64,000 nt of DNA from the NCBI RefSeq assembly GCF_032362555.1, contig NC_083532.1:4105001-4169000 (forward strand), read 5' to 3'. The stretch comes from Amyelois transitella (taxonomy: Eukaryota > Arthropoda > Insecta > Lepidoptera > Pyralidae). The notes under the pieces were generated by a model that made no database searches, was not told the DNA's origin, and was given only the letters and a program-made list of their open reading frames with translations. The translations under genes were made by a program, and so were the position numbers. Positions within the stretch are counted from its first letter, which is position 1. Each line of letters begins with the position of its first letter. Shown piece after piece: positions 12,530-59,114 of this stretch.

Positions 12530-15500
12530 CTAATTTCTCCTCCCCGTCTTCCCCATAAAATTTACCACTTGTGCGAACGGCGCGAACTTGCCGCGTCTCC
12601 CTCTTTTTTTCGCGCCCATATCATCCGACTCGACCATAGACGAGTCGACATTTTTTGACGCGTTCTCTTCGCTATACGTTTCGCTGTCATTTTTTTCCGT
12701 GTCTGTCATGTCGCGGTATTTTCTGTAGTCCCTGCGGTATTTCGATGGCTCCTGGAGGAATTGGTGTTCAGGTTGGCACATGAGGGTCTCGTAGAAGTAT
12801 CTGTCGGCTCGGCCTTCTGCTTTGGGTCTGGGTTTCTCGTCGTCCGAACTCTCGTTCGAGGAATTCAGCTGGGGGCTGCCGGGCGTCGATTTCTTTGCGT
12901 GTTGTCGCATGCTAAAAAAAAAGACTATGTTCCCTCTCCCTCTTTCATCATAGGGTTCCCAATTTCTCAGTGGCATTTTCAGGTAGCTTTAATCAGTTTT
13001 GACATATACCATGAAGCATTACTTTGCTGTCAAAATAGCCGTTTAAACTTTAAACTACTGGCTTTTCCACTCTAGGACCATAAACCCAGAAATCTCCCAA
13101 GCGAACGAAACCGGGAGAAATTCCAGGGGAATTACGTAGAGAAAATGACATTTTTAAAGGGATGCAGTTTAAGACAAAAAACTTAATAGCCACTACATAA
13201 CATATCTAGTTCATCAAGAATTTACAAATCCTAAAATAAAGCAAGAAGGCTTAGCAGCTCACAGTAATACGATTTTTACTGTGTCACTTCCATCAGTCTC
13301 CAGCGTAACCTAATTTTTGATTGATAGCAACCTGAGAAATTGGGGATTCAATACAAGAAGAGGGAAAAAGAAAGCATCATACCCACCATCTCTTTCCGTC
13401 ACCCACGACGGCGGATCTCGGGGAGGGGGGAGCGTACGCTGTAGTTCCGATCGCGTCATCACCACTCACAGCCTGGGGGTAAAGAGTCACATCAGTTTCC
13501 AAGCCTGATATACCTACGAGCCTTTTGGTACCTGCCCCTTGAGAAGAGTATGACCTTGTAAGAAGACAAATTTGCTGAATGTGATTCCGTCAATAGTTTT
13601 TCTACATCTGCACCACATCTTTCAGCTATCTCAAGAGTACAGGTGGATATAATGATAGAGGAAAAAGCGGCAATATCAATCTCCTTGAATCTCAATAAGG
13701 CCATTCATCTATCATTAGGCCAAGCAGCTAAGCGTGGCCTTTCGGTCTTATAATGACTGCTGGATCTGTCTACCATGCAGGGGATATAGACGTGATTATA
13801 TGTTTATGTCAATGGAAAAAGCGGCCTGCAACTTGCTGATTTTTATAGAATATATTTATATTTCGAAAGGAAGAGTGGATTGCGCCATATCAAGCCATAC
13901 AGCTGAATGTGGCCTTTCAGTCTTTCAAGACTGCTGGCTCTGTCTACCCCCAAAGGATATAGACGTGATTATATGAATGAATGAATGTCTAGTAAAGATA
14001 CAGTTCTATGGAAGGGATATCTGTTTAATATTACCTTGTTCCCAAAATGGAAGAAGCAATGCGTTATCCTCTCCACATCCGCCCAGGCCACGATGTACCT
14101 CGCCATGGACAGGGGAATTTTCGGCAGGAAGTTGGAGTGGAATTTCCCCTGGCAGTAGATAGTGATCACGTCTGTGTCTTTCACTTCGAATATAATTCGG
14201 AATATTGTACCTGAAATTGACAAGGTACAGTCACCAGCTGTAGTTCTCACTACTCTACTCTTACGGTGAGGGAAAACATCGTGAGGAAACCTGCACATTC
14301 GGGCAACTGGATGTGTAACCATGATCGATACAATACGGTTAGGTTCCCCCCTGCAAAGGTTGAGGATTTCAGACAGGAGACGCTTCGAGTAAAAACCTGA
14401 CTCACCCAATCCAGGATCCATGGTCAAAGGCATACCCCGGGCTCCTCTCCAGAGTGGTGAGGATGCAACCGAAACTAAAGCCAGGAAGAAATCACAGAAA
14501 CACCTTTTACCGTTTGGCATGATTCCCGGATACATCCTCACCTCAGGCCATATGGTTCTCGAACTCCCATGAATGTCGTAAAAGGCGAATAAGGGAAAGG
14601 CTAATAAACCGCTCCACAACCTATGCAGGGGAATCTAACCCGTATTGGATCGCCCATGGACATCCAGTTGCCTGCATTTGCAGGTTTCCTCACGACGTTT
14701 TCCCTCGCCGTAAGAGTATCGGTCAGTATTCAAACTAATGTACATAACTTCGAAAATAGTCATTGGTACATGGCCGGGGTGGGATTGGAACCTGTGCCTT
14801 TTTGCGCCACACGCATTTTAACCGGGCACCTTACCGATTCGAACACCGACGCTCTGTGTTACTGTGATGTCCCTCACTATATATATATATATATATATAC
14901 ACATAGACATCACAGTATATATATATTATATATATATATATATATATTCTTCCCATTCCTGTCTATTCCCGTTCACATACCCGGGACAAACATGTTGTAA
15001 TTGGTGTCGTAGTTTCCGCTGCCGATCCAGATGCCGTTCTTCCTGGACAAGGAGATGATGTTGTCCCGGTGGAAGCGCACGTCGAAATGCAGGACCACGT
15101 CTCGGGGCTCCTCCCCCTCTTGGGCACACAGGTTTACTGACATTCTGAAGAGAAAATATACTTACCAAGTAATAACACAGGCCTACAACGATTTTGGTGC
15201 CGGGGGTTTTGGACCTGATTTTAAATAAGTCTTACATGGTGATATCAAAAATGTTATCAGTTTTTTTCTATCAGCTCTAGTTTTCGATATAAATAAAAAC
15301 ATAAATTTCACAAAAAAAAAACTTTATTGGCATTAGACATCAAGAAATTGCCTTTTGAAAGATTTCCTGGAATGAAATTGACTTGGAAAATCTCGCATGA
15401 TTCCCCAGCAATAATCAGCCATCATATGAACGTCCCATCTTCCTTGATATCTGTTCTCCATCGTTTTTATATCTTGGTGGAAACGTTCTCCTTGTTCTTC

Positions 15501-17646
15501 GCTTAGATCTCCTAAATTGTGTTGGAAATGATCCAGATGGCTATGGAGATAGTGTATTTTTATACTCATATTACACCCTAAATTTTTGAAACAAACTAGC
15601 ATTTCTTCTACTAAGTTAACATAGTTCTCAGCCTTATGATTTCCGAGGAAATTTCGTGTAACTGCTACAAAAGATTTCCACGCAAGTCTTTCCAGTTCGT
15701 TCATATAAGTCTCAAAATTAGCGGTGTCTTTCATTAATTGACGTATTTGAGGTCCATCAAAGATCCCTGCTTTCAGTTTTTCAGTACTTACACAAGGAAA
15801 TTTCCGTGAAATAAACTGAAAACATTGCCCATTTCTGTCGAGAGCCTTAACAAATTGCTTCATTAGCCCTAACTTAATATGCAATGGCGGAAGAATGATT
15901 TTTTCTCTTGAAACTAAGGGTTCATTTATAACGTTTCTTTCCCCAACAACAAGAGCATCTCTCATTGGCCAATTTTTTTGAGTCCAATGATGTGATTTGG
16001 CTCGACTGTCCCAGAGACAAATATAGCATGGGTATTTAGTATAACCACTCTGTTGGCCCAGTAAAAAATTAACCATCTTCAAGTCGACGCAGATCACCCA
16101 GACATGTTCAAAATATTTTATTTTCTGTAACAGAATTGAAATTACCTCATATTCTTCTTTCACACATGTCGAATGAGCAATTGGAACGGGAGCATATTTA
16201 TTTCCATTATGTAGGAGAACTGCTTTGAGACTTCGTTTACTACTGTCAATAAAGAGACGCCATTCATTGGGCTGATAGGTTGGCAAACCCATGAAAGTTA
16301 GCAAACCACTCACATTACAGCAATACACAAAATTTTCATCAGATGAAAAAAACTGCAATAAACTTTGTTCTCTCGTGCGATATATAGACACTCGAACATC
16401 TGCAGTAAGACAGTTTTTTTCTTTTAATCTTGACGCCAGTAATTCAGCACGTTCCTTAGAAAGATCTAAGTCTCTGATAAGGTCATTAAGCTCTTTCTGC
16501 GAAAATGGCTTAGGATTTGATGTTTTTTCGCAGTATTCAAAGTAATCATCTTCAGAAGAAACCGGTTTTTCAACTTGATCCTCGTGAGATTGCTGCACTT
16601 CCTGGTGAAAAGATGGTATTGGAACATTTTCTGAATGAGGAATAGGTCTTTGTGCTGAAGAAATATTAGGGTATTTCCATTTATGGCGATTGTTTTTGTT
16701 GATGCCCACCGTATTAGTCATACAAAAGTAGCAGTCGTCAAAATGATTTTTTTGTTCTCGCCAAATCATAGGTACTCCAAACTTCAAAGACTTGCGTATA
16801 CCTTTCTCCCATTGTCGCAAATGTTCAACACATATTTTACAAACACTATGAGGCACCCACACTTTATCTTGCTGTCGAATTTCAATTCCGAAGTAAGCAA
16901 AATACAAACGATTTACCGTGTTTGTAATTGATTTGCGCTGACCTTTCAGTATGAATTGACCACAAACATAACAAAATTGATCAGGATTGTTAACACAACA
17001 TCTGGACGTACTAGCCATAATGAAATATCAACATAAACTTAATCGATGTTATTGTAATAATGACTTTTTACGACCAAGACAGGCAAAAATTGAAAACGAG
17101 GGTAGAACGAAAACTACAGCTGATGAGTTAAAATGGCGTTAGGCAATATACCCTACATTACCTACTTTATCGAACATAGACACTAACAGGGCTGCACCAA
17201 AAAAAATTTTTTTTTTGCAGGCCTGTGTAATATTACAAATAAAGGTGTGTTACATACTAGCTGTTGTCGACGACTTGATTCGAAGTAAAAAATTAGAAGC
17301 CTATTATATTGCCACCTTAGAGTTCATTAGCCTTTCCCTTAATTGACTTTTACTCATAAGAAATGGTGTGGTCCTATTCTAAAGTACCAAGAACCACAGG
17401 GTAAATAAGAGTAAAAAATACCAGATAAATTTCGGGGTCACCTGTCTTAGTTGGTAAAATCAGTATCGGCCTACAAAATAAAAAATAAATAAAGAATTTA
17501 TAATTTTCGCCCCACTTCGAATATATACATATAAGATATATTACAAATTCAACTCACTTTCTAGCATTTTCCTTTATTTTACCTCCTATTTCTATCCGAT
17601 CCCCAACTTTTAATACGCTGGGTATATTTGCCGTAAACACCGGCAT
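12530..17646 (-). CDS. Galectin-like protein with charged C-terminal extension
   Basis: Five exons in transcription order: 17646-17558, 15144-14981, 14210-14035, 13309-13263 and 12911-12530. The phases fit and give 285 aa. Residues 1-24 (VLKVGDRIEIGGKI) are the usual galectin N-strand. H49-FDVRF-54 matches the first galectin motif (H-NPR region), followed by IISLSRKNGIW. Residues ~84-145 contain FEVKDTDVITIYCQG, corresponding to the FE..I.......V..NG strands. The canonical sugar-contact pattern (HxNPR, WGxExR) is not fully kept, so beta-galactoside binding is uncertain. Galectins lack a signal peptide and none is seen. Residues ~160-285 are an unusual extension, rich in Ser/Asp/Glu/Lys and ending in a basic tail (KKRGRRGKF). 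The 47-bp fourth exon is the least certain, though its phases join exons 3 and 5 exactly. Confidence 0.78.
13700..13806 (-). repeat. Family A, partial copy
   Basis: Only the (GTAT)n-proximal half is left; in intron 3 of the galectin gene. Confidence 0.65.
13890..13984 (-). repeat. Family A, partial copy
   Basis: Second half-copy in the same intron, ending in (GAAT)n instead of (GTAT)n. Confidence 0.65.
14225..14740. repeat. Family F repeats, two facing pieces
   Basis: 14225-14570 is a plus-type copy with TGACTCACCCAATCCAGGAT. From about 14625 a related piece reads in the opposite sense. They fill much of the intron between galectin exons 2 and 3. Confidence 0.5.
14770..14862 (-). mobile_element. 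tRNA-like SINE head
   Basis: On the minus strand it carries GGCACAGGTTCCAATCCCAC, a pol III B box, preceded by a tRNA-like 5' half with GTTCGAATCGGTAAGGTGCC. It is followed by (TA)n runs. Too divergent to be a working tRNA. Confidence 0.5.
14876..14947. repeat. (TA)n / (CA) compound microsatellite
   Basis: Two (TA)n runs separated by a short ACACATAGACATCACAG spacer, next to galectin exon 2. Confidence 0.85.
15176..15200 (+). repeat. Terminal inverted repeat, 3' end of the 561-aa element
   Basis: CACAGGCCTACAACG followed by ATTTTGGTGC; partner of 17190-17227. Confidence 0.7.
15333..17018 (-). CDS. 561-aa DDE transposase-like protein, RAG1/Transib-like signature
   Basis: Intronless 561-aa ORF starting with ATG at 17018. 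I recognise the family as one usually annotated 'uncharacterized protein' in many insects. The N-terminus has zinc-binding-type pairs: CYVCG near residue 16, CKIC near 61 and CYFC near 96. The likely catalytic core is FID258SS, then V-D312-LK with C331-Y-I-C334 nineteen residues later, H489-x4-H494, and S506-E-E-Q-G-E511. RAG1 has the same order and spacing: D600, D708 with C727-x2-C730, H937-x4-H942 and E962 in SEGNE. The Transib transposase further along this window has D, D-x16-C-x2-C, H-x4-H and SEEASE. I therefore infer cut-and-paste transposition activity. No intron and no stop suggest an intact gene. A domesticated role is possible but the flanking inverted ends argue for a mobile copy. 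Confidence 0.8.
   Translation of the reverse strand: MASTSRCCVNNPDQFCYVCGQFILKGQRKSITNTVNRLYFAYFGIEIRQQDKVWVPHSVCKICVEHLRQWEKGIRKSLKFGVPMIWREQKNHFDDCYFCMTNTVGINKNNRHKWKYPNISSAQRPIPHSENVPIPSFHQEVQQSHEDQVEKPVSSEDDYFEYCEKTSNPKPFSQKELNDLIRDLDLSKERAELLASRLKEKNCLTADVRVSIYRTREQSLLQFFSSDENFVYCCNVSGLLTFMGLPTYQPNEWRLFIDSSKRSLKAVLLHNGNKYAPVPIAHSTCVKEEYEVISILLQKIKYFEHVWVICVDLKMVNFLLGQQSGYTKYPCYICLWDSRAKSHHWTQKNWPMRDALVVGERNVINEPLVSREKIILPPLHIKLGLMKQFVKALDRNGQCFQFISRKFPCVSTEKLKAGIFDGPQIRQLMKDTANFETYMNELERLAWKSFVAVTRNFLGNHKAENYVNLVEEMLVCFKNLGCNMSIKIHYLHSHLDHFQHNLGDLSEEQGERFHQDIKTMENRYQGRWDVHMMADYCWGIMRDFPSQFHSRKSFKRQFLDV
17190..17227 (-). repeat. Terminal inverted repeat, 5' end of the 561-aa element
   Basis: Reverse complement starts CACAGGCCTGCAAAA and reaches TTTTGGTGC after an A/T run that is longer than in the partner. 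Confidence 0.7.
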
Positions 17647-33214: not shown

Positions 33215-36200
33215 TCAACCGAACAGGTTCTTCAGGTCGTGCTCGTACATAGCTATGACCAGCATGACCCCTATACCAGTTGCCAGGCCCATCAGTTGGA
33301 GTATGCACTGGCACAGAGTCCCCTCGTTGCTGTGAGACGTGCTCAGCTCCGGCATCTGAGGAATTCAAAAATCAAATTCAAAATTCAAAATTTTTATTCA
33401 TTACTATAGGATACTATATATCGTTTAATAATAGGGTACCGGACAGTAATCGAAAAAAAATCTAAGTTGTGTTTTAAAATAAAGTTTGTTATACAAGAAC
33501 AGCACATAATAAAGATTTTTAAGAAATAACAATGATTTATAATTTTAAATCAATAAATAAAGTTGCAAAAATCCAATATTTTTTATCTGTGCAGCGTAAG
33601 AACCCAAACACCAATCACAGTGGGTGACGTCATACGTAATGAGTGATAAGTAAACACCACTGCTTTGTATGTTATTTCGAGTTATTCTACGATTTACTTG
33701 CATTTTTCTAAAAATATTTAATTGTAATTAGTTACGAATTGAAGGACTTTACTCATAACAGAAGTTGTCGCAAGTGCTTGAAGCCGCCTCAAACCGAATC
33801 AAGCTTTTATCATGGAACAAGGTTACAAACCGACAATAGAAATCTCCCAAAAGATTGATATTTTCATGGTCGGCAGTTCCTTTGCCACTAATACCGATTT
33901 TTATTTTGCTGAATTTAGCAATGTGAAAACATTTGTGTAAGTAGGTATTTCAACCTCTTTTTGTTATCTTAACAACAGAAATGATTGAAGAAATTACAAA
34001 CGAAAACATAACCTAAAACTAGTTTCATTGTTTACAAAGTTATTTTCACATATGTTTTTTTTCTATGATTTTAAAGGTTAGATATTTATGGGTTTTGCAT
34101 GTTTCAAGATCTGCGAGAAAATACTTAAATTATCCAAGCACTGATCACTTGTAATATGGCTTGTAGTTTGTTTTCCAAACATATGACGTCACGCGATCTG
34201 AATTGACGTAAAGTGCTGTTTTCGCGGCAATTTTAAATAAATTACGTTTTTGACGTTTTTAAATACTCCAAAAGATTTATTTATTTAAAATAATATTTTT
34301 TATGGATATATAAATAAATAAAGATTATTTTTAAACACAATCTGAAAAGTTGTCCGGTACCCTATTGTCAAATAAATTACTTAAAAACTAAGTTTACTGC
34401 CGCTTCCAAGGCGTCAGTGCAGAAGAAGCGGTAACAAACTGCACTGCAGCATTTTCTTCTTCAATGAATGAAAATTTGTTATAGATACATACATTTGGTC
34501 ACGTCTATATCCCTTGCGGGGTAGACAGAGCCAACAGTCTCGAATAGACCGAATGGCCGCGTTCAGCTATATGGCTTAATGATAGAATTGAGATTCTAAT
34601 AGTGACTGATCGCTAGCTCATCGCCTAAAAAAGAATCCCAAGTTTGTAAGCCTATCCCTTAGTCGCCTTTTACGACATCCATGGGAAAGAGATGGAGTGG
34701 TCCTATTCTTTTTTGTATTGGCGCCGGGAACCACACGGAACAAACATACATACATGTTATAGATCTAGACATATTATAAACAAAAGCAATTAAGCACATA
34801 TAGAAAAAAAGAAAAGGACGTCGTAAAAGGCTGTTAAGCTTGGGATTCTTCTTTTAGGCGATGGGCTATCAGTCTTTGGAAGGCTGTTGGCTCTGTCTAC
34901 CACGCAAGGGATAAAACCCATGTCAACCAGCGCGATGTACAGGAAGGTGCCGGCGGCGATGGCGAACAGCGCACTGTACAACACCCTGGGAACTATCCTA
35001 AGACACCAGCCGCCCCCCACTCACCATGTCCACCAGCGCGATGTACAGGAAGGTCCCGAACACCCTGGGAACTATCCTAAGACACCAGCCGCCCCCCACT
35101 CACCACTATACAACACCCTGGGAACTATCCCAAGACACCAGCCGCCCCCCACTCACCACTATACAACACCCTGGGAACTATCCCAAGACACCAGCCGCCC
35201 CCCACTCACCACTATACAACACCCTGGGAACTATCCTAAGACACCAGCCGCCCCCCACTCACCACTATACAACACCCTGGGAACTATCCCAAGACACCAG
35301 CCGCCCCCCACTCACCACTATACAACACCCTGGGAACTATCCTAAGACACCAGCCGCCCCCCACTCACCACTATACAACACCCTGGGAACTATCCCAAGA
35401 CACCAGCCGCCCCCCACTCACCATATCCACCAGCGCGATGTACAGGAAGGTGCCGGCGGCGATGGCGAACAGCGCACTGTTCAAAACCCTGGGAACTATC
35501 CTAAGACACCAGCCGCCCCCCACTCGAGCGCACTATTCAACCCTGGGAACTATCCCAAGACACCAGCCGCCCCCACTCACCATGTCCACCAGCGCGATGT
35601 ACAGGAACGTGCCGGCGGCGATGGCGAACAGCGCACTATTCAACACTGGGAACTATCCCAAGACACCAGCCGCCCCCCACTCAGAGCACACTACCCAAGA
35701 CCCTGGGAACTATCCCAAGACACCAGCCGCCCCCCACTCAGAGCGCACTACCCAAGACCCTGGGAACTATCCCAAGACACCAGCCGCCCCCCACTCAGAG
35801 CACACTACCCAAGACCCTGGGAACTATCCCAAGACACCAGCCGCCCCCCACTCACCATTTCCACCAGCGCGATGTAGAAGAAGGTCCCGAACACCATGCG
35901 AGCTATCCCAAGACACCAGCCGCCCCCCACTCAGAGCACACTACCCAACACCCTAGGAACTATCCCAAGACACCAGCCGCCCCCCCCACTCACCATGTCC
36001 ACCAGCGCGATGTACAGGAAGGTGCCGGCGGCGATGGCGAACAGCCAGCGGGTGGCGGCGGGCGTGTCGCCGACCGCCACCCCGCACACCATGCCCAGCA
36101 GGCACAGCGCTGAAGACAGCACGTTGTAGCAAACGGCGCGTTTCACTGTACAACACCCTGGGAACTGTGCTAAGACACCAGCCGCCCCCCACTCAGAGCG

Positions 36201-39200
36201 CACTGTACAACACCCTGGGAGCTGTGCTAAGACACCAGCCGCCCCCCACTCAGAGCACACTACCCAACACCCTGGGAACTATGCTAAGACACCAGCCGCC
36301 CCCCACTCAGAGCACACTACCCAAGACCCTAGGAACTATGCTAAGACACCAGCCGCCCCCCACTCAGAGCACACTACCCAAGACCCTAGGAACTATGCTA
36401 AGACACCAGCCGCCCCCCACTCAGAGCACACTACCCAAGACCCTAGGAACTATGCTAATACACCAGCCGCCCCCCACTCAGAGCACACTACCCAAGACCC
36501 TAGGAACTATGCTAATACACCAGCCGCCCCCCACTCAGAGCGCACTACCCAACACCCTGGGAACTATCCCAAGACACCAGCGGCCCCCCACTCACCACTA
36601 TTCGACACTCTGGGAACTATCCTTAGACACTAGCCCCCTCCCCCCCCCACTCACCATGTCCACCAGCGCGATGTACAGGAACGTGCCGGCGGCGATGGCG
36701 AACAGCCAGCGGGTGGCGGCGGGCGTGTCGCCGACCGCCACCCCGCACACCATGCCCAGCAGGCACAGCGCTGAAGACAGCACGTTGTAGCAAACGGCGC
36801 GTTTCACTGTACAACACCCTGGGAGCTGTGCTAAGACACCAGCCGCCCCCCACTCAGAGCACACTACCCAAGACCCTAGGAACTATCCCAAGACACCAGC
36901 CGCCCCCCACTCAGAGCACACTACCCAAGACCCTAGGAACTATGCTAATACACCAGCCGCCCCCCCACTCACCACTATTCAACACTCTGGGAACTATAAT
37001 TAGACACTAGTCCCCCCCCCCCACTCACCATATCCACCAGCGCGATGTACAGGAACGTGCCGGCGGCGATGGCGAACAGCCAGCGGGTGGCGGCGGGCGT
37101 GTCGCCGACCGCCACCCCGCACACCATGCCCAGCAGGCACAGCGCTGAAGACAGCACGTTGTAGCAAACGGCGCGTTTCACTGACATGCCCGCTTTTAGT
37201 AGGACAGCGAAGTCGCCTGTCACAGGATGGAGAGATAATGTTTATTAATATATATATATATATATACATATATAAAATCACGCCTCTTTCGCGGAGTGGT
37301 AGGCAGAGACTACCTCTTTCCACTTGCCACGATCTCTTGATGGAGAGATAATGAGATAATTAATAAACTAGCTGTTGCCCGCGAATTCGTCCGCGTAAAT
37401 TTCGAATTTTTCCCGCGTAAACTTATTTGCAGGCAAACTCATGCCTTGAGTTCATTAAAGTGACGATAACTTTTTTTTTAGTAAACCGATTTTGATGAAA
37501 CAAACTTTACTGTTTTTCTGATTTAAAACAAAGCAATTGGTGAAAGTTTGAAGTAAATCGATTCAGTACTTTCGGAGATAAGCGTGATCATACATACAGA
37601 CAGACAGACAAGAAATACATAAAAAATATTTCTGCTTTCTGTTATTCCTTCTAAGTGTCCCTCTATTCATTTCAGTCAAAAATACTAAGTGTACAGACAA
37701 AATATTTTTACTGTTTTATTATGTGTATGTATAGATAAATAATATATACGGGACAAATAACACTGATTGAGTTAGCCTATAGTGCCGTGTGGTTCCCGGC
37801 ACCAATACAAAAAAGATTAGGACCACTCCATCTCTTTTCCATGGATGTCGTAAAAAGCGACTAAGGGATAGACTCACAAACTTGGGATTCTTTTTTAGGC
37901 GATAGGCTAGCGACCTGTCACTATTTGAATCTCAATTCTATCATCAAGCCAAAAAGCTGAACGTGGCCTTACAGTCTTTTCAAAACTATTGGCTCTGTCT
38001 ACCCGGCAAGGGGTATAGACGTGACCATATATACGTATAACATAACATGACATAAAAATCACGCCTCTTTCCCGGAGGGGTAGGCAGAGATCACCTCTTT
38101 CCACTTGCCACGATCTCTGCATACTTCATATATATGTATGTAAGTATTAAAGTCTATATATATATATGTCAGCCGTGATTATATGATGGATGCTTACCCA
38201 ACTCGTGGGGTAGTTCGTGACACAACACCGCTATGGCCGTAGAAAAACCACCAGCTATGTTCGATTGGAAAGCGGCGCCTGAGAACAATTATTAGGCAAA
38301 TTTTTTTTTATAATTTCAATATAAAAAAGGAATAGGACTCTTTCTCAGGGATGTCGTAAAAGGCGACTAAGGGATAGGCTTATAAACGTACCTGTGATTA
38401 CCTATGTTCACAAAATAAACGATTTGATTTGATTAGGATTCTTTTTTAGGCGATGGGCTGGCAACCTGTCACTATTTGAATCTCAGTTCTATCTTATAGC
38501 CAAATATGTAGCTAAACGTGGCCTATCAGTCTTTTCAAGACTGTTGGCTTTGTCTACCCTGCAAGGGTACACGTAAATATATGAATGCATTAATAAATAC
38601 ATATAATACTAGCTGTCCCGGCAAACGTTTTTTGCATTTTGTGGGAATGAAAAATAGATGTTGGTCGATTCTCAGACCAACTCAATATGCCCACAAAATT
38701 TCACGAGAATCGGTCAAGCCGTTTCCGATGAAAACGGGAACGAACATTGTGACAAGAGAATTTTATATACCTAATATATAAGTGAGTGCCGTGTGGTTCC
38801 CGGCACCAATACAAAAAAGAATAGGACCACTCCATCTCTTTCCCATGGAAGTCGTAAAAGGCGACTGTTGTCTCTGTCTACCCCGCAAGGGATATAGACG
38901 TGACCATATGTATGTATGTAATATATAAAATATGTCTCACCAATAGCCATTCCGTCCGTAAAATTATGCAGTCCATCCCCCATGATGACCATCCACGCGA
39001 CCGACGACATGGAGGAGGGGGGCGCGTGCACGTGGCCGTGCGCGTGCGAGTGCCCGTGGTGGGCCCTGGAGTGCTCCCTGTGGGACAAATAAATATAAAT
39101 AAAGTGGGCTCTGGAGTGCTCCCTGTGGGACAAATAAATATAAATAAAGTGGGCTCTGGAGTGCTCCCTTTGGGATAAATAAATATAAATAAAGTGGGCT

Positions 39201-42200
39201 CTGGAGTGCTCCCTGTGGGACAAATAAATATAAATAAAGTGGGCCCTGGAGTGCTCCCTGTGGGACAAATAAATATAAATAAAGTGGGCTCTGGAGTGCT
39301 CCCTGTGGGACAAATAAATAAATATAAATTGTATATACGAGTGTGGAGGGCGGCTTAATCGGCGGCCGTATCCATAGATCGGCTCGTTGTCCAGGGTAAA
39401 GTGGAAGGCTCTCGACCGCGCGGGAGGTCACCCATGCGATGGACCGACCAAATAAAGTCTGTGATTGGCGGTTCACTTAACGAGTGCAGCAGGATGACTT
39501 CCAGCAGGGAGAAATGGCGGGACATCGTAAGGCGCACATTGGCGCCCGCCTCCAACACTACATGAGGACCACGACCACTCTGTCAAGAGTGACACGACTA
39601 AGAAGAAGAAGTGTGGAGGGAAAGTTCGAAGTGGGAAGACCTAGACGAACGTATCTTGATCAAATTAAGGACGTTCTGGTAAAGGGTCAGGTCAAAAGTA
39701 CCCGAAACCGCCGAGCTTGCATGAAGAGTTATGAGAGCTTGCATGAAGAGTTATGAATGTGGATGAAGCGAAGGGAGTATGCAGAGATCGTGGCAAGTGG
39801 AAAGAGGTAGTCTCTGCCAACCCCTCCGGGAAAGAGGCGTGATTTTATGTATGTATGTATCTATCTTAATATATTTACAACGTTTGCGTTCCTAAGTGAC
39901 CGTACATGTAAATCTGAACAAAACACATTTATTACTTGTAACCTTGCCATTATAATAATTCATAATTGACCATGAAAATATTAATCTATTGTTTTTTAAC
40001 CAATAAATAAATAACACGACATTACTCACCTCAATATGACAGTGTAACTATCACCGTCCTTCAAATCTTTAGCACCATCCTCTTTATGTTTGATATTGTT
40101 CATTTCTACAACAGCCGGAGACTCCTTCAGCAGCCAATCTTTAGCGGTAGGCTCTTCTTTGCCCTCCGTGTTCAAAGCATTGGACGACACCACGCTGACA
40201 GAATTGTTATGTTTAGGTTGCGGACTGGGCGGTATCTGACCGTCCCTCAAATGATGGTCATCGTGCGTGTCAGTATCAATTTCATCGTAGCAATAAGGAT
40301 ACTCCGAATACTTGTGCTTACACGTCTTCGTTGTGGGATCACCTTTCTCATCCCGTTTGAATATCTTCATCAGTGACGACGAATTGTTCACTTTGGACGC
40401 GGACACTTCAGTGTTATCATCTTTCAGAACTCTCACTCTGGTCGGCAACTTGCCATCTTCCAATTTCTGCCTGCGTTTCCTCCATTCCACGACTACAGTT
40501 AAACCTTTTTCGGTGAAATAGAAGAATACAACGCCCAACATGGCGGCTAATCCTTTCCACATACCGTCATCGTGCGAATGTGCCGTTTCATCGTCCATTG
40601 GACTCATCGCGTGAGGCATCAAATGTAATAACGCATCACCACACAAAGTGCCCACGGCTAACGCTACTAGAAATTGTAAAAGGTGATTGTAATATGTCTT
40701 ATGCATTATAGGTATAACTGCTACTCCTAATAAACCACAAGCACTAATAGCTGCTATACTTAAAGAAGAATATAACCAAACGGCGTACATATTCTTCCCT
40801 TCTGCTAAATCCAACTGCGTATCGTCTTTTCGCCTATTTCTCTTGTCTAAATTGTTTCTTATAACGCAATTGTTAAGTTCTAGAACATTATCAGCTACTT
40901 TGTGATATAGAAGAATGGGGCAGACGTCTTGTAAGGTATCTTTTGTGATAATCGCGTCAGTTTCATGATCGTCATGATGGCCGTGTGGTTTTAACCGGGT
41001 ATTTACAGTGCTTATTAACTCTTCGCTGCCCACACACTGTAAAAGAAAGGTTTTATTGTAGAAAGAGTAAAAAAAAAAGACACGTCGACGATAAAGCGAG
41101 ATAAATATTTACGAGACAATTCGAAGTTATTGGATTCCATCTTCAAAGATAAAATAATTGATAATAAATACTTCTAAAAATAAACAATGTGCCGTGTGGT
41201 TCCCGGCACCAATACAAAAAAGAATAGGACCACTCCATCTCTTTCCCATGGATGTCGTAAAAGGCGACTAAGGGATAGGCTTACAAACTTGGGATTCCTT
41301 TTTAGGCGATGGGCTAGTAACCTGTCACTATTTGAATCTCAATTCTATCATTAAGCCAAATAGCTGAACGTGGCCATTCAGTCTTTTCAAGACTGTTGGC
41401 TTTGTCTACCCCGCAAGGGATATAGACGTGACCATATGTATGTATGTAAAAATAAACAACAGCTCGTTTCGCATCGTGCCCTGGTCGGGGATCGAACCCT
41501 GTACTTTGTGTCTCACGACGCTGAACTACTACCATTGCATCGAACAAGCTGTCAAAGACACGCCTTTATAATGAAGTACAATTTGGTATAAATTCCCACG
41601 AGAGTGAAGTCAGGGGCACAGTTTCAACTAGAGATCAAAAATAACAGAATCCATCTTGATATGTCAAGGTAGCAGGCATATCAATCAATAGGTCTTTGAA
41701 CTGTTGGATATTTCTTATCACTGACTACGATATTTTTTGATATGAACAATAAAAATCATTGACGAGTCTTCATCCTATATGTATATATGAAAAAGGACTT
41801 GATTGGCTGTACAAATGACTTTTTGGGACATTCTAATTTAAAAAGGCACGCGGCACGGATCATTTTTATCGTGTGGTTATATAGAATAGGACCACTCAAT
41901 CTCTTTCACATGGATGCCGTAAAAGGAGACTAAAGGAAAGGGTAATAAAATTAGCTAGCTACCTATTACTATTCGAATCTCACTTCCATTATTGAGCCAT
42001 ACAGCTGACCGTTGCGTAGTCTTTACGAGACTGCCGGCTCTGTCTGCACCGTAAGCGACAGAGACGTGATCACACGAATGTAGGTACGTATGCAATCTTT
42101 CATTAATATTAAAACACAAATATGAAAGGTGTTACTTACACTAACAATTTCAGTATCAGTCGCCGTCTGCCCAATATGCGTTATCTTCTCATTCTTCTCC

Positions 42201-51008: not shown

Positions 51009-51328
51009 AGGCGCGTACGATAAAAAAATCACTAGGATTCGCCAGTCGCTTCGAGGAAATTTCTACGAGTACGAGCCGATTCTGTTTCCGCGATTGGGGA
51101 AGACGTAGCCACGCCCCCCCAACACCCCGCAAACAATATTTGCGTAGGAGAGGATAGCTCCCGGCGGAAACCCCTGCCAGGACTTCGGGACTGATTTGCT
51201 CGCATCCCCCTAGTAGCCGGCCTCCCACCAGCGGGTCTCACCGGTGAAAAGGGGTTGGGTAGTCGGCCCCGTTGTTCCTTCGGCTGCTCGGGAGCGACTC
51301 CACTCCCGCGCGTCGTCCGGGCTCCGAA

Positions 51329-52240
51329 ATGGAGCCCCCCCCCCGGGAAGGGGTAGGTGCGGGTCCCCCGCACCTCTCCCCCGACATCGCCCAAACGCAT
51401 ACGCCACCAGCGGCGTATGCTACGCCGACGGGCGTTTTTCACGCGCCCGCCGCCGCCGTCTCCGCCGCTGCTGTCGCCGCGGCGCTCTCTGCCGCCGATG
51501 CCGCCGCCGCGGCTCCCGCCGCCGCAGTTACGATCACCAACACGGCGACGACGACGACCGCAGCAGCACCTATTGTAACTGCCGCCGTCACCGCCGCCGC
51601 CATCACCACCGCTGCCGCCACCGCGGCCAACACCGCTGCCGCCACCGCCGCCGCCACTTCCGCCGCCGCCGCTGCCGCCGCTGCCACCGCCGCCGCCGCC
51701 AGCGCCGTCACCCCGGCCACCGACGCCTCCGCGGCAGTCATGACCGCCTTCGACGCTACCGCCGCCCTCGCCGCCGCACCCACACCCGCGCCCCTCGCGT
51801 CCCTGTCCCCAAAGGGATGGATGAAGAGGGACGCGGAGATTCTCGTTCGGCTAGTCAAGGGGAACTGGCTGTCGCCGGGGTTGGCCCAATGGATGGCCGT
51901 ATACCTGCGCCTCCAAGAAAATGAGGTGCGGGGGGTCGCCCCGTCGGTCGCCGACCTGACGGCGTTGGACGCAGCGAGGCGGGGGGTGATTGCACTGCCC
52001 CCCGTCGATATGGGAACGCCGAGGGGGAGGGTAATTACCTCCCTCCTGAAGAGGCCGGCCAGCCCAGAAGAAGAAGGCCAAAAGAAAAAGCCGCGCGCCA
52101 TCAACATGGGGGAGGAGGAATCCCGCTCCTCCACGCAGGAGCCGTCGTCGTCGGGGTCTATGGCGGACCTGACGATGACGGAAGCAAGCCGCCGCCCCCT
52201 GCAGCGCGCGGCCACAATGGCGTCGGAGCGCGGCTCTGAG

Positions 52241-52274
<34 letters not shown>

Positions 52275-54055
52275 ATGCAATGATGAAGCCTCCGCCGGCC
52301 GGAAGATCAGCGATCCCGAGATGGCAGTCCCGGGACCCGCGCCGTGCCCAAGCGGGGGCGGACTCAAATCGCGCGCCCGCCCACGCGTCCGCCCAGGCGC
52401 CCGCCCAGGCGCCCATGCAAGCGGCCGCCCACGCAGCCGCCCGCCCGCCCGCCCAAGCAGACGTCCGCCCGCCTAACCAGGCGCCCGCCCAACCAGCCGC
52501 CCGCCCGCCCAGCCGGGCCCCCGCCCAACCAGCCGCCCGCCCGCCCAACCAGGCGCCCGCCCAACCAGCTGCCCGCCCGCCCAACCAAGCGGCCGCCCAA
52601 CTAGCCGCCCGCCCGCCCAACCAGGCGCCCGCCCAAGCGGCCGCTCGCCCGCCCGCCCAGACGCCCGCCCAAGCAGCCGCTCGCCCGCCCGCCCAGGCGC
52701 TCGCCCAGGCGCCCGCCCAGGCCCCCGCCCTTGCGCCCGCCCACGCGCCCGCCCAACGCGCGCCGCCCTCGCTGGCCGCTCCCGCGGTATCATTTGCCCG
52801 GGTAGCGGCTAACACCGGAGCCCCGCTTCCCCAAAGGAAAGGGGCACAACGGGGAGCGGTACCTCGCGCCCCGCCCACCACCTCAACACCTGCCGCCTCC
52901 AGTTCGACCACAGCTGTGGCCTCCTCTGGAACCGCAGCCCTCGCAGCCACCGCCACCGCCGCCGCCGCCGCCGCTGCCGCCTCAGCCGCCCCGCCGACGG
53001 CACAAGCGCCCCGGGAGCCGCGCTACCCGCGCATCTGCGTGGACCACCTGCCCAACTGGGTGGTCCATTTCAGGGAAATTAGCCGACTGCTGGGACGCTC
53101 GCCGGCCGCCGTCGCACGCGGAAGAGGCGTGCACTTTACGCCAAAGGACGGCAACGAATATAGGACAGTCCAGAGATATATCAACACTCTGGACGTCCAA
53201 TGGCACTCATATTCGTTGCCGTCGGACCGTCCCTTGAAGGTGGCCATCCGCGGGCTGCCGCCCGACACGGAGGAGGCCGCGCTTAAAGAAGACCTGGAGG
53301 AGAAGGGCTTCACCGTGGAAGCCATCAAAGCCATCCGGGGCAGGGGAGATCGCCCCGGATGTGTCTTCTTCGCCCTCCTGGCCAGAACACAGAACTGCCA
53401 GGAGGTATTCACGGTGAAAGAGATCCTTCACTGGCCGACCCTGAAGGTGGAGGCGTGGAGGGGAAAACAGGGACCCGCCCAGTGCCACAGATGTCAGTTG
53501 TTCCGACACTCGTCGGTCAACTGCCACCGAGCAACCGTCTGCGTGCGCTGCGGAGGGCCCCACAAGGCCACGGACTGCGAGCGGCCATTGGACCAGCCCG
53601 CCACCTGCGCCAACTGCGGTGGACCGCACCCGGCAAACCACTCCTCGTGCCCGGTGCTGCGGCGCGAGGCCAGAAACAGACGGGCTGGCCCGGTCGCTCG
53701 CAGCGGAACCGCCCCCACGCCTCAGAACACCACAACCGAAGCAGCAGAGGCCTCACTAATGGCCCCCGCCAACCCACCGACCGCCAGGGGAGCAGAGCTC
53801 CCGAAAAAGAAAAGGAAGAAGAAGAAGAAGAAGAATGCCGCCGCCGTGAGCTCTGCCCCCGTGGCGGAGGAAGAAGCGGCTGCAACCGTGCCGCCTCCCC
53901 CGGCACCTCAAACCGTTCCCGCGCCTGCCTCGGCTGCGCCGATCCCACCGGAGCACTTCTACGCGCTGGTGCAGTCGGTGCAGCAGATGCAGGCACTGCT
54001 GGCCGCCCTCGTCCCCGCGGCCCCCCTCAGAGGCGTACCCACCCCTAACCTTTAA
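51329..54055 (+). CDS. LINE ORF1: gag-like protein with zinc knuckles
   Basis: The first ATG of the open frame is at 51329, giving 908 aa. Residues ~30-150 and several later stretches are almost pure Ala/Thr, encoded by GCC/ACC. Around nucleotides 52440-52740 a 12-residue unit (RPPNQAPAQPAA) repeats about seven times. From about 53020 a PRE_C2HC-like domain follows (VAIRGLPPDTEEAALKEDLE). Three zinc knuckles come next: C-x2-C-x9-C (CHRCQLFRHSSVNC), CVRCGGPHKATDC and CANCGGPHPANHSSC. A Lys-rich run (KKKRKKKKKK) and Pro/Ala tail close it. Such proteins bind the element RNA and build the ribonucleoprotein. The stop at 54053 is followed 2 bp later by the ORF2 start. Confidence 0.88.
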
Positions 54056-54057
54056 TT

Positions 54058-56796
54058 ATGGATGGTACGCCTCTGAGGATCGTGTACTGGAACGCAGAAT
54101 CGCTCCGGAGGAAGAAATACTTGCTGGCCAACTTCCTCCGGGAGCAGCACATCGATGTTCTCCTCGTCAGCGAGACCCACCTGCGGGAAGACCAAAAGTT
54201 TGGCATCCCAAACTACATCACATACCGGAAGGATGAGAAGAGCCCGGTCAGTGGATACGCCTACCGGGGACTTGCAGTGTTGGTGAAGCGCAACATCATT
54301 CATCAGCCCATCCCCCACGTGGAGTTCCAGACAATGTACGCCCTCGGCGTGCTCATCAGCGTCGCCGGCCGCGAGCTGCGGCTGTTTGCTGCATACATAC
54401 CGCCAGGGGCCAAGCTCGACACCAACGAGCTCTGGTCCCTACTGAACACTACCACGCCAACGCTTGTGGCTGGCGACTTTAACGCCAAGCACACAGCCTG
54501 GAACTCCACGAGGATCAACCGAAGCGGAAGAATCCTTCATCAGGCCGCTGTGGACCACGACTTCGAGCTGTTGGGGCCGGACGAACCCACCCACACCGAC
54601 ACGTTGGGAGGCTCCGACACCATCGACATCGTGGCCCACAGAGGGCTGACAGCGCTGCCAACACTGCACGTCTACCCGGACCTGCCGTCAGATCACCGGC
54701 CGGTTCTTCTCATCCTCCGGGACCTTCCGGCGAGGGTCACGCTGCCGAGGAGAACATCCAAAATAAAATGGGACCATTTCCAAGACGAAATTGTGGGCGA
54801 CAAGGCCAGTGTCGCCTTCAAGCGGGTCTCCACCAGCGAAGAGGTCGAGCTTGCGGCGAGTGCCATCACCCGCAGCATCCAGCACGCGCTCGACGCCGCA
54901 CGGACCCCCGTGCCGGCCACCGCCAAACCCGAGCCGCTCCCGGCGCACCTCACCGCGCTGCTGGAGCGGAAGCGAAGAATGCGGAGGCTGTGGATGAGTA
55001 CTCGCTGCCCAACACTCAAAGCCGACCTGAACAAGCTGGTGGAGACAATCAAGAACAAACTAGAGGAGCACGCAGCCAGATCGTGGGAGAACCACCTCTT
55101 ATCGGTAGGCGGTGATATCCCCTCCGTTCACCGCCTCTGCCGGCAGTTGTCGGGCGTGCCACAACCCGTCCGGCCGCTGCTGGCAGCCGATGGCCTCCCA
55201 CGGTTCAAGGCCGAAGACAGAGCTGAGATCTTCGCCGAGCATCTGGAGCGTCAGTTCACGCCGAACCCGATCGTGGACCAGGCCCACCACGACAGCGTCG
55301 TCGAGCACCTTCGGGAGTACCTTGCGGAGCCAGTGCCGGAGCTTGAGGATGCGGTATTCTTCACTCCCGGCCAGGTCAAGAGGACCATCCTGAAGCTGAA
55401 GCCCAGGAAAGCCCCGGGCGCAGACAACGTCACGAATGAGGCGCTTCGCCACCTACCGCCGGGATTCATCACGGCGGTGACGCGCCTCTTCAACGGCATT
55501 CTGCGCTCGGGCCACTACCCGACCATATGGAAAACCGGAAGGGTGATCCTCTTGCCCAAGCCGGGGAAGGACCTCCGCAAGCCTGAGAGCTACCGGCCCA
55601 TCACGCTTCTCAGCGCCCTCTCGAAGGTGTTCGAAAAACTGCTGCTCGGCCTCATACTGCCGCACATCACGCCGCGCGCCGAGCAGTTCGGGTTCCGGCC
55701 CGAACACTCCACGACGCTCCAGATCGCCAGACTCCTTGGCGAGATCTCAGCTGCTGCCAATCGCAAGGAGACCGTGGCTGTCGTGCTCCTCGACAACGAG
55801 AAGGCCTTCGACAGAGTATGGCACGAGGGGTTGCTGTACAAACTGTCGAAGAGCCAACTTCCCAGAAGACTGACAAGGATTGTGGCCTCCTTCCTGAACG
55901 AGCGGAAGATCAGGGTGGCGGTCGAAGACGCCGTTTCTTCGGAGAAACCCGTCCGGGCTGGCGTTCCTCAGGGCAGCTGCCTGAGCCCGGCCTGCTACGC
56001 TGCGTACACCGACGACATCCCGGTCGCCGATGGAGCCAAGCTGGCTCTATACGCCGACGACGCGGCGTACTTCGCGAAATCCATAAACGCGAAGCACGCC
56101 GCCAAGAAGCTCCAAAAGGCACTCGACGCCCTGCCAGATTGGCTCCAGAAGTGGAGACTGTCGGTGAACGTGGCGAAAACGCAGGCCATTATCTCCGGGA
56201 ACGCCGCCCCACCGCCGCCGCTGAAGCTCTTCGGGAAGGACGTGGCGTGGCAGCCACACGTCACCTACCTCGGGGTCAAGATCGACCGTGGACTTCGCCT
56301 GAAGACCCACGTCGATTCAGTGGTGCAAACTGTGAAGATGGCCAGGGGAAGACTGCGTCCAGTCCTCTCCTCCAGCCTCCCGCTGAAGACGAAGCTCGGG
56401 ATCTACAAAACCTACGTCAGATCCCGCCTCACGTACGCAGCCCAGGCGTGGTACGCCTATGTCGCGGAGACAAACAGGCAACGTCTCCGTGCTCAAGAGA
56501 ACCAATGTCTCCGCGACATCGTCAGGGCCCCACGGTACGTGAGGAACGCGACGATCCAGCGGGACCTCAAATGGGAGGGCCTGGACGCGTTCATCTCGCG
56601 TCTGGCCGGCGATATGTTCGGCAGGGCGGACAGGTCGGCGCACCCGCACCTTGTGGGTATCGCGCCACTCCACGCTCGCCCGCCGGACCGAAGACACTGG
56701 CCATCGCCGAGAGAAGCCATCTTCACAGCGAACACCACTGCAGGCGCTGCACCCGCGGCGCCCGTTGACCCCGCAGGAAGAGGAAGACCTCATTAG
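54058..56796 (+). CDS. LINE ORF2: AP-like endonuclease and reverse transcriptase
   Basis: 912 aa without internal stops. The endonuclease domain (1-230) shows VYWNAESL, SETHL, GDFNAKHTAWNS and SDHRPV, the Mg-binding and catalytic blocks of AP-endonuclease-like nucleases. The reverse transcriptase spans about 440-720. It shows KPRKAPGADNV, YRPITLLSALSKVFEKLLL, LLDNEKAFDRVWH (first catalytic Asp), AGVPQGSCLSP and YADDAAYF (catalytic DD). The C-terminus has no RNase H and ends with Cys/His-poor sequence after RLRAQENQCLRDIV. The protein nicks target DNA and copies the element RNA in place. Translation probably follows ORF1 by reinitiation, given the TAATTATG junction. Confidence 0.95.
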   Translation: MDGTPLRIVYWNAESLRRKKYLLANFLREQHIDVLLVSETHLREDQKFGIPNYITYRKDEKSPVSGYAYRGLAVLVKRNIIHQPIPHVEFQTMYALGVLISVAGRELRLFAAYIPPGAKLDTNELWSLLNTTTPTLVAGDFNAKHTAWNSTRINRSGRILHQAAVDHDFELLGPDEPTHTDTLGGSDTIDIVAHRGLTALPTLHVYPDLPSDHRPVLLILRDLPARVTLPRRTSKIKWDHFQDEIVGDKASVAFKRVSTSEEVELAASAITRSIQHALDAARTPVPATAKPEPLPAHLTALLERKRRMRRLWMSTRCPTLKADLNKLVETIKNKLEEHAARSWENHLLSVGGDIPSVHRLCRQLSGVPQPVRPLLAADGLPRFKAEDRAEIFAEHLERQFTPNPIVDQAHHDSVVEHLREYLAEPVPELEDAVFFTPGQVKRTILKLKPRKAPGADNVTNEALRHLPPGFITAVTRLFNGILRSGHYPTIWKTGRVILLPKPGKDLRKPESYRPITLLSALSKVFEKLLLGLILPHITPRAEQFGFRPEHSTTLQIARLLGEISAAANRKETVAVVLLDNEKAFDRVWHEGLLYKLSKSQLPRRLTRIVASFLNERKIRVAVEDAVSSEKPVRAGVPQGSCLSPACYAAYTDDIPVADGAKLALYADDAAYFAKSINAKHAAKKLQKALDALPDWLQKWRLSVNVAKTQAIISGNAAPPPPLKLFGKDVAWQPHVTYLGVKIDRGLRLKTHVDSVVQTVKMARGRLRPVLSSSLPLKTKLGIYKTYVRSRLTYAAQAWYAYVAETNRQRLRAQENQCLRDIVRAPRYVRNATIQRDLKWEGLDAFISRLAGDMFGRADRSAHPHLVGIAPLHARPPDRRHWPSPREAIFTANTTAGAAPAAPVDPAGRGRPH

Positions 56797-56911: not shown

Positions 56912-57007
56912 CAGGAAGACCCACGACGAAAAAATCACTACCAATTGAACTGTTGAAGAAGATACATCTCCATAAAATCAGTGACGCTCTATTATCATCT
57001 ACATACC

Positions 57008-59114
57008 ATGACTCGATTTGGAACCAACTTGGACTTCTACATATTTCTACGAGAAGGCGACCTCAAGGATTATAAAAGGCTCCATCAAGCGATTTTGGCT
57101 GGTATTCCACTCAGTGTTTGTGACCAAGATTCTGAAGAAATATTAAAGTTTTCAAGATCCATCACTGTCAACTTGAATCGCAGATGGACCGCGGCAAACA
57201 GAACTCAGAAAACATTTATGAATAAACATATGGGCTGGTTAGAGGAAAGAATCAAGTGGCCTGTGTGCAATAACCTGAATCTCGCGAAGATTTTTGAAGA
57301 TACCATAGAGGAAGAAAATCAGCTACCAGAGCCTACAGATTACGTCACTCCATCCACATCTTCTGTTACAAAGGATATGAGCACTTCTACAGAAAGTCCG
57401 GTCAGAAAACCATTTTCTGACCTGGGAAACAAGCAAAAAAAAAAGACGGTCAGGTACATTAACTGACTATACAGCAGATGAGTTGTCTTTTGCTCTCGTC
57501 TCTAACCTGAAATCGGAAGGAAAAATCGACCTTGCCCAAGTGATTGGGCACCTTATGAAAAACCCAGAACGAGCACACGAAGTTCAAACATATTTGTTTC
57601 ACAAGGAGAAGAAGGAAACTCTCGAGGAAGATCAAGCTTTGGCCCTTGCTACTTCACTGGATTTGTCAAAATGGAGATATTTGACGCTAAGGGCTTTCTT
57701 GACAAACTACGAAGGTTCTGCACAGCTTCCTTCGTACCACAAACTGTTGAAAGCTAAGAAGAAATGCTATCCGGATACGTCTGATATTGAAGTAACTGAA
57801 GATGGAGCAAAGGTGAAATTGCAGTCATTACTGAATTTGACTGTACAGAGGATCCTGCAAGTTGTTGGCGAACCTCTAAATCTCCCAGATGGACATCTAA
57901 AAATGACCAGCAAATGGGGATTCGACGGATCTTCAGCACAAAGTAATTACAGACAGAAAAGCGGGCAACCTGACTTCGATGATTCATCAGTATTCATGAC
58001 GAGTCTTGTGCCATTAAAGCTTGAGTCTGACAATGTGCTGATCTGGGAAAATCCAAAACCTTCTTCCACGTTTTACTGTAGACCAGTGAAGTTTCAGTTC
58101 GCAAAGGAAACCAGCGAATTCATCAAACAAGAAGAAGCTGCGATGAAAGAAGAAATCCGAAACCTGACTGTGTCAAGATGCGGGGAAGTCGAGATCAGTC
58201 ATGATCTGCACATGACGATGATTGATGGCAAGATAGCTACAATCATCACCGATACTCCATCTGCAGCGACTTGCAATATATGTCTGGCAAAACCCAGTGA
58301 AATGAATAACTTACCAGAAGTATTCTCAAGACCAGTTCGGGATGAGGTGTACCAGTACGGACTCTCTACACTTCACATGTGGATCAGAAGCATGGAGTGT
58401 CTATTGCACATATCGTACAATATGGACTTCGAGATGTGGTGTGCACGAGGTGAAAATAAAAACCTCAAGAAAGCAAGGAAGGATTTCACGCAACAACAAT
58501 TCAAAGAGCAGATGGGACTCTTGATAGATATTGTTAAACAGGGCTTCGGAACTACGAACGATGGCAACACTGCAAGAAAATTTTTCAGAGAATACCAGAA
58601 GAGTGCACAGATTACGAAGATTGATGAGAATCTCATTAGGCATTTCGCTGTGATCTTGCAGGTCATATCCTCTGGGAATGCCATCAACATCGAGAAATTC
58701 CGGGAATATTGCAGAGAGACAGCTGAACTTTTTGTACACCTCTATCCATGGTACAATATGCCAGCAAGTGTGCACAAGCTGCTCATACATGGGGCTGATA
58801 TTTGCCGACATTTCTCTTGTCTGCCTATTGGAATAATGTCGGAAGAAGCATCCGAAGCAAGAAATAAGGAATTTAGAAATACAAGGGAGCAACACACTCG
58901 GAAAATGGGAAGGATTCAGAATAATGAAGACATTCTTCATAACTTTTTAATAACTTCGGATCCATATATATCACACATCAGGCCAAAGTATGCAAAATTC
59001 AATAAATTAAAATTATTTTCAGAAGCTATTGACTTATTAGAATCAGCGGTAGAGGAAGAAGCAGAAATGGAGATCGACGAAGTTTCAGTGGATAAGACAA
59101 ATCCTTTGGAATAA
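57008..59114 (+). pseudogene. Transib transposase, one frameshift
   Basis: The first part (57008-57466) is open from ATG to a TGA just after a run of ten A at 57435-57444. The frame then shifts and continues open to 59114, together about 700 codons. The RAG1-like core is readable: GFDGSS (Asp 57924-57926) and MIDGK (Asp 58224-58226). C-x2-C follows at 58272, 16 residues on. H-x4-H lies at 58773-58790 and SEEASEARNK has its Glu at 58854-58856. NDGNTARKFF and ENPKPSS-FYCRP also match the family. The enzyme would cut at the CACACTGG ends. The frameshift sits in a homopolymer, so a sequencing error or a recent inactivating slip are both possible. Confidence 0.85.

Follow-up and report, generated by a model that had tools for sequence, protein, structure and literature searches.

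In a 64,000-nucleotide stretch of the Amyelois transitella genome (contig NC_083532.1, forward-strand positions 4,105,001 to 4,169,000; hereafter, the window, whose first letter is position 1), we identified a 2,052-bp element (positions 15176 to 17227; transposase on the minus strand) that, matched to published descriptions, is very probably an intact, autonomous-looking Chapaev3 cut-and-paste transposon of the CMC (or CMCT) clade. The presence of a RAG1/CMC-type transposase in an intact-looking cut-and-paste transposon is supported by DDE and zinc residues, the predicted fold, and the inverted ends with their target duplication. These same features bear out a first-pass annotation of this DNA, which had proposed a RAG1/CMC-type cut-and-paste lineage. 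The annotation had also called the family usually unnamed; this holds for protein databases only, as the lineage itself has a name (i.e., Chapaev3). Since the lineage is already known, the direct value of the finding is modest. The window copy is clean, with both ends present.

The element has the termini 5'-CAC and GTG-3', with CACAGGCCT starting at position 15176 and a near-inverse copy ending at position 17227. The left inverted end (positions 15176 to 15200, plus strand; 3' side of the gene) reads CACAGGCCTAC-9 nt-GGTGC, and the right inverted end (positions 17194 to 17227, minus strand; 5' side of the gene) reads CACAGGCCTGC-18 nt A/T-GGTGC. Both ends are the sole matches to CACAGGCCTRC (with one mismatch at most) in the window. 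They are flanked by a TAA duplication, whose left copy (positions 15173 to 15175) is preceded by A (position 15172) and whose right copy (positions 17228 to 17230) is followed by T (position 17231), so that a TWA duplication lies between A and T (A-TAA ... TAA-T; a single insertion). As a chance test, the 400 bp flanking the open reading frame (ORF) on either side were put through 2,000 dinucleotide shuffles: CAC..GTG ends that agreed at 10 or more of 11 positions arose alongside an identical TWA duplication in none of them, and without it in 17; the rules applied here were picked post hoc from the sequence but are identical to the published rules. Thus, the 561-amino-acid (aa) ORF between inverted ends and a short flanking duplication, as annotated in the first pass, was confirmed. 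The G+C content of the element is 36%.

An outer block (CACAGGCCTRC) and an inner block (GGTGC) are common to both ends, and the spacers between the blocks differ in length (9 versus 18 nt), the longer one being pure A/T. This asymmetry may be constant, as in 12/23 recombination signal sequence pairs, or may reflect slippage. The right end (positions 17186 to 17226) is also an imperfect palindrome, with 20-nt arms that are 85% complementary and join in the A/T run. Reading the duplication as 4 bp (AATA, with ACAC ends) is also compatible with the sequence but violates the CAC terminus rule, and TAA was therefore preferred. Chapaev elements sensu stricto have a 4-bp target duplication, which is not found here (read with CAC termini, the element has ATAA on one side and TAAT on the other). 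They are otherwise similar in their membership of the CMC clade and CAC ends; they are described as having a Chapa-type N-terminal zinc region (PMC4411706, excerpt), to which the zinc domain of the window protein may correspond.

These features coincide with those of Chapaev3 elements, which are described as having CAC..GTG termini and a 3-bp TWA duplication that is always located between A and T (PMC4079192, excerpt). Like Merrow, Garfield, and Conan, the window element combines such ends and such a duplication with the C(2)C, LH, H(4)H, and DDE residues and with occurrence in animals, including moths and butterflies. Its size (2,052 bp; 561 aa) falls within the published span (approximately 1.9 to 2.5 kb; 461 to 562 aa): Garfield_BM of the silkworm is 2,289 bp long, its transposase (556 aa) carrying the C(2)C, LH, and H(4)H motifs, while Merrow_PM (2,451 bp; 562 aa) and Conan_ET (1,865 bp; 461 aa) mark the extremes (PMC4079192, excerpt). 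The window gene has a single exon, in contrast to the two exons of Merrow and Garfield, and Conan_ET is shorter; the same source reports one exon in most other Chapaev3 elements. It also reports empty sites for Chapaev3, as well as horizontal transfer involving insects, jawed fishes, lampreys, reptiles, mammals, and a bracovirus (PMC4079192, excerpt). Chapaev3 is treated as a sublineage of Chapaev, which belongs, along with EnSpm, Mirage, Transib, and further groups, to the CMCT clade, whose members have the C(2)C and H(3-4)H motifs in common with RAG1 (PMC12730594, excerpt); elsewhere it is described as a distant relative of other Chapaevs (PMC4411706, excerpt).

The transposase ORF (positions 15333 to 17018, minus strand) is a single intact exon with an ATG start and no internal stops, as indicated by the ORF call, its homologs, and an AlphaFold2 model. 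An AATAAA hexamer (positions 15323 to 15328, minus strand), located 4 nt past the stop codon, may serve as a polyadenylation signal. A protein search, in which 7,991 candidates were scored, yielded at least 2,278 homologs at an E value of ≤1e-3; this number is a lower bound, and the detailed statements below cover 120 listed homologs. The listed homologs exhibit 56 to 89% identity, and five of them carry organism names: the lizard Rhineura floridana, Callosobruchus analis, Hydra vulgaris (P0043; 60% identity), Pyrocoelia pectoralis, and Onthophagus taurus. The family had been annotated as a widespread insect one; insects are indeed represented, but the Hydra and lizard homologs show that it is not restricted to them. 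None of the names displayed among the listed homologs contains "transposase," all being of the uncharacterized kind. By manual count, 109 of the 120 listed homologs are located on contigs shorter than 4 kb, nine are on longer ones, and two have no figure; the short contigs suit collapsed repeats, as indirect evidence.

The presumed catalytic and zinc residues are almost completely conserved (all positions on the minus strand). Invariant in all 120 listed homologs are D258 (codon at positions 16245 to 16247; in strand 253 to 260 of the model), D312 (positions 16083 to 16085; after strand 308 to 310), C331 and C334 of the C(2)C motif (Cys331-x2-Cys334; positions 16017 to 16028), L379 and H380 of the LH motif (positions 15879 to 15884; a Chapaev motif according to PMC4079192, excerpt), H489 and H494 of the H(4)H motif (His489-x4-His494; positions 15537 to 15554), S506, and E508. 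The presumed catalytic E511 (positions 15486 to 15488), which lies in SEEQGE and in helix 508 to 523 of the model, is kept in 119 of the 120, with Lys in P0015. D258, D312-x18-C331-x2-C334, H489-x4-H494, and SEEQGE511 are thus where the first-pass annotation had located them. The fold prediction that it had recommended (AlphaFold2; mean predicted local distance difference test score, 90.1) places a RAG1/Transib-like catalytic core at approximately residues 168 to 551 (positions 15366 to 16517), containing an RNase H-like core at the fold level of RAG1 and HzTransib and an insert with CxxC and HxxxxH. This confident model sets a CMC transposase at the RAG1/Transib fold level. Searches of solved structures with the full protein gave no matches, and those with the profile gave unrelated chains only (best E value, 0.63).

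We propose that transposase subunits would recognize both CACAGGCCT ends by means of the zinc domain at the N terminus, together with portions of the core, and would bring the ends together. Cleavage would be carried out by an RNase H-like site formed by D258, D312, and E511 and backed by the C331/C334/H489/H494 zinc site, probably through a nick followed by hairpins on the flanking side, as for RAG and Transib. The excised element would then be joined to an A-TWA-T target, where cuts 3 bp apart would produce the TAA duplication.

An improbable alternative is that the element belongs to a separate, undescribed CMCT lineage that shares just the ends, duplication, and motifs with Chapaev3. The likeness to Chapaev3 was judged from published descriptions, no protein named as Chapaev3 turned up in the collections that were searched, the C(2)C and H(3-4)H motifs occur throughout the clade (PMC12730594, excerpt), and the window protein matched no Pfam family above the cutoff and no NCBIfam family. 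On the other hand, the TWA between A and T, the LH motif, the ORF length, and the animal range all fit published Chapaev3 elements, and Hydra, a species named in a published legend to a Chapaev3 tree (PMC4079192, excerpt), has the 60% identical protein P0043. These points argue for Chapaev3 itself.

That the element is instead a Transib, like the one encoded 40 kb away, is highly unlikely. The Transib protein (positions 57483 to 59114) has the same predicted fold and carries its catalytic and zinc residues, which were assigned by eye, in the same order as the window transposase. However, the D-to-C spacing is x18 in the window transposase versus x15 in Transib, the second H and the E are separated by 16 versus 21 residues, and the distance between the first and second Asp is 54 versus 100. 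In RAG1 (D600, D708, C727, C730, H937, H942, and E962), the spacings are D-x18-C, 19 residues between the second H and the E, and 108 between the first and second Asp (versus 54 here), and the RAG1 core is approximately 10% identical to the window transposase. RAG1, a recombinase of the immune system, also has extra domains (i.e., nonamer-binding and RING domains). A match to RAG1 and Transib in both order and spacing had been claimed; the order stands, as does the D-x18-C agreement with RAG1; in spacing, the match is partial.

At the sequence level, no significant similarity to Transib was detected by BLASTP against the window Transib protein (E = 0.66) or by hhalign against a Transib profile of 117 rows (the window protein and 116 of its 120 listed homologs, length filtered), in which local probabilities were 0.4 to 1.1% (P = 0.047 to 0.16) and the global P value was 0.77, the comparison being weak given a Neff (effective number of sequences) of 2.5 on the Chapaev3 side. 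In the third and weakest of the local alignments, itself nonsignificant, CxxC, HxxxxH, and SEEQGE were aligned with the equivalent motifs of Transib. Because neither method detected similarity, kinship with Transib rests on motifs and fold. Transib elements, to which both HzTransib (6pqn/6pqx) and the window copy belong, have a 5-bp target duplication and CACWATG ends, whereas the Chapaev3-type element has a 3-bp duplication and CACAGGC ends. Unlike the window transposase, canonical Transib is described as having no identifiable domain beyond the core (PMC4411706, excerpt). Equally hard to credit is a domesticated host gene of transposase origin, for which the intact ORF and a galectin-like exon within 30 bp might speak, since the matching inverted ends and target duplication that flank this ORF are expected to disappear in the course of long domestication and since many proteins from distant animals retain 56 to 89% identity.

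The N-terminal part of the Chapaev3-type transposase (residues 1 to 140; positions 16599 to 17018, minus strand) forms a zinc-type domain with C16/C19, C60/C63, H92, and C96/C99 and a ZAD-like predicted fold. The N-terminal CxxC pairs had been annotated as a possible DNA-binding module; they belong to what looks like a ZAD/Chapa-type zinc domain, which could act in dimerization as well as in DNA binding. ZAD (zf-AD) heads one of the largest families of insect transcription factors. The ZAD of insect C2H2 transcription factors appears to resemble the window domain in predicted fold (approximately residues 10 to 76) and in the register of C-x2-C ... C-x2-C, but identity is 14 to 22%, and the window domain then adds the H92/C96/C99 group and the transposase core. 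A search with the Grauzone ZAD returned four short proteins. Among 16 N-terminal pieces, the window piece gave the best E value against the zf-AD profile, with a score of 22.1 bits (curated cutoff, 28) over only positions 22 to 59 of the 75-position profile.

Other zinc families were also matched by these pieces, namely, Zn_ribbon_12 (five pieces; best E value, 0.0057), FYVE (four pieces; 0.02), and DZR_2 (one piece; 0.0035), and two pieces matched RAG1_imp_bd (best E value, 0.012); in a shuffle control of the window piece alone, other families appeared at E values of 0.027 or worse. Searches of solved structures with the N-terminal piece and profiles retrieved no ZAD chain at E ≤ 10, which weighs against a ZAD relationship. 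Host takeover of a transposase domain has a model in the relation of THAP to the P element. We tentatively suggest, as a possibility that we consider somewhat less probable than its opposite, that ZAD and the N-terminal (Chapa) zinc domain of Chapaev3 have a common origin and that ZAD is a transposase domain adopted by host genes. Chapaev3 is described as carrying the Chapa zinc domain, which is also reported in RAG1 (PMC4411706, excerpt). No ZAD-transposase link was found among the listed matches in open-license papers, and the resemblance of the Chapaev3 front zinc domain to an insect transcription factor domain may be new. If true, the link would join a major insect regulator family to the transposon clade behind V(D)J recombination.

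No further copies of the transposase protein or of its ends were found within the window. In viral contigs, the single protein gave no pattern matches and the 121-row alignment gave 10, none of which was confirmed; a genome contig collection gave 49 pattern matches, none confirmed as copies, and a phage collection gave nothing. BFVD contained no match at E ≤ 0.001, and the bracovirus copy described in PMC4079192 (excerpt) was absent among the 50 entries listed. An SQS_PSY match (E = 0.00067) in 1 of 28 whole proteins was taken as chance.

A galectin-type exon piece (positions 14979 to 15146, minus strand; Gal-bind_lectin, E = 3.6e-6) adjoins the Chapaev3-type element, which therefore appears to be placed in an intron or flank of a galectin-type gene. 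The Transib transposase (positions 56981 to 59114, plus strand) is divided between two ORFs that differ in frame (positions 56981 to 57466 and 57483 to 59114), of which the second matches the solved HzTransib structure 6pqn (E = 1.9e-158; residues 49 to 527); the protein is 99% identical to LOC106142803 of A. transitella (P0121). No CACWATG ends were found around this copy between positions 55501 and 61000. Directly upstream lies a non-LTR (long terminal repeat) retrotransposon (positions 51272 to 56796, plus strand) with a long ORF1 (PRE_C2HC, below the cutoff) and a 912-aa endonuclease-reverse transcriptase ORF2. The window also contains a piece of a ZIP zinc transporter gene (positions 40026 to 41033, minus strand; PF02535, E = 2.3e-26). 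Two long ORFs (positions 34887 to 36790 and 38771 to 39476) resemble, by eye, tandem repeats and are probably minisatellite-type arrays rather than genes.
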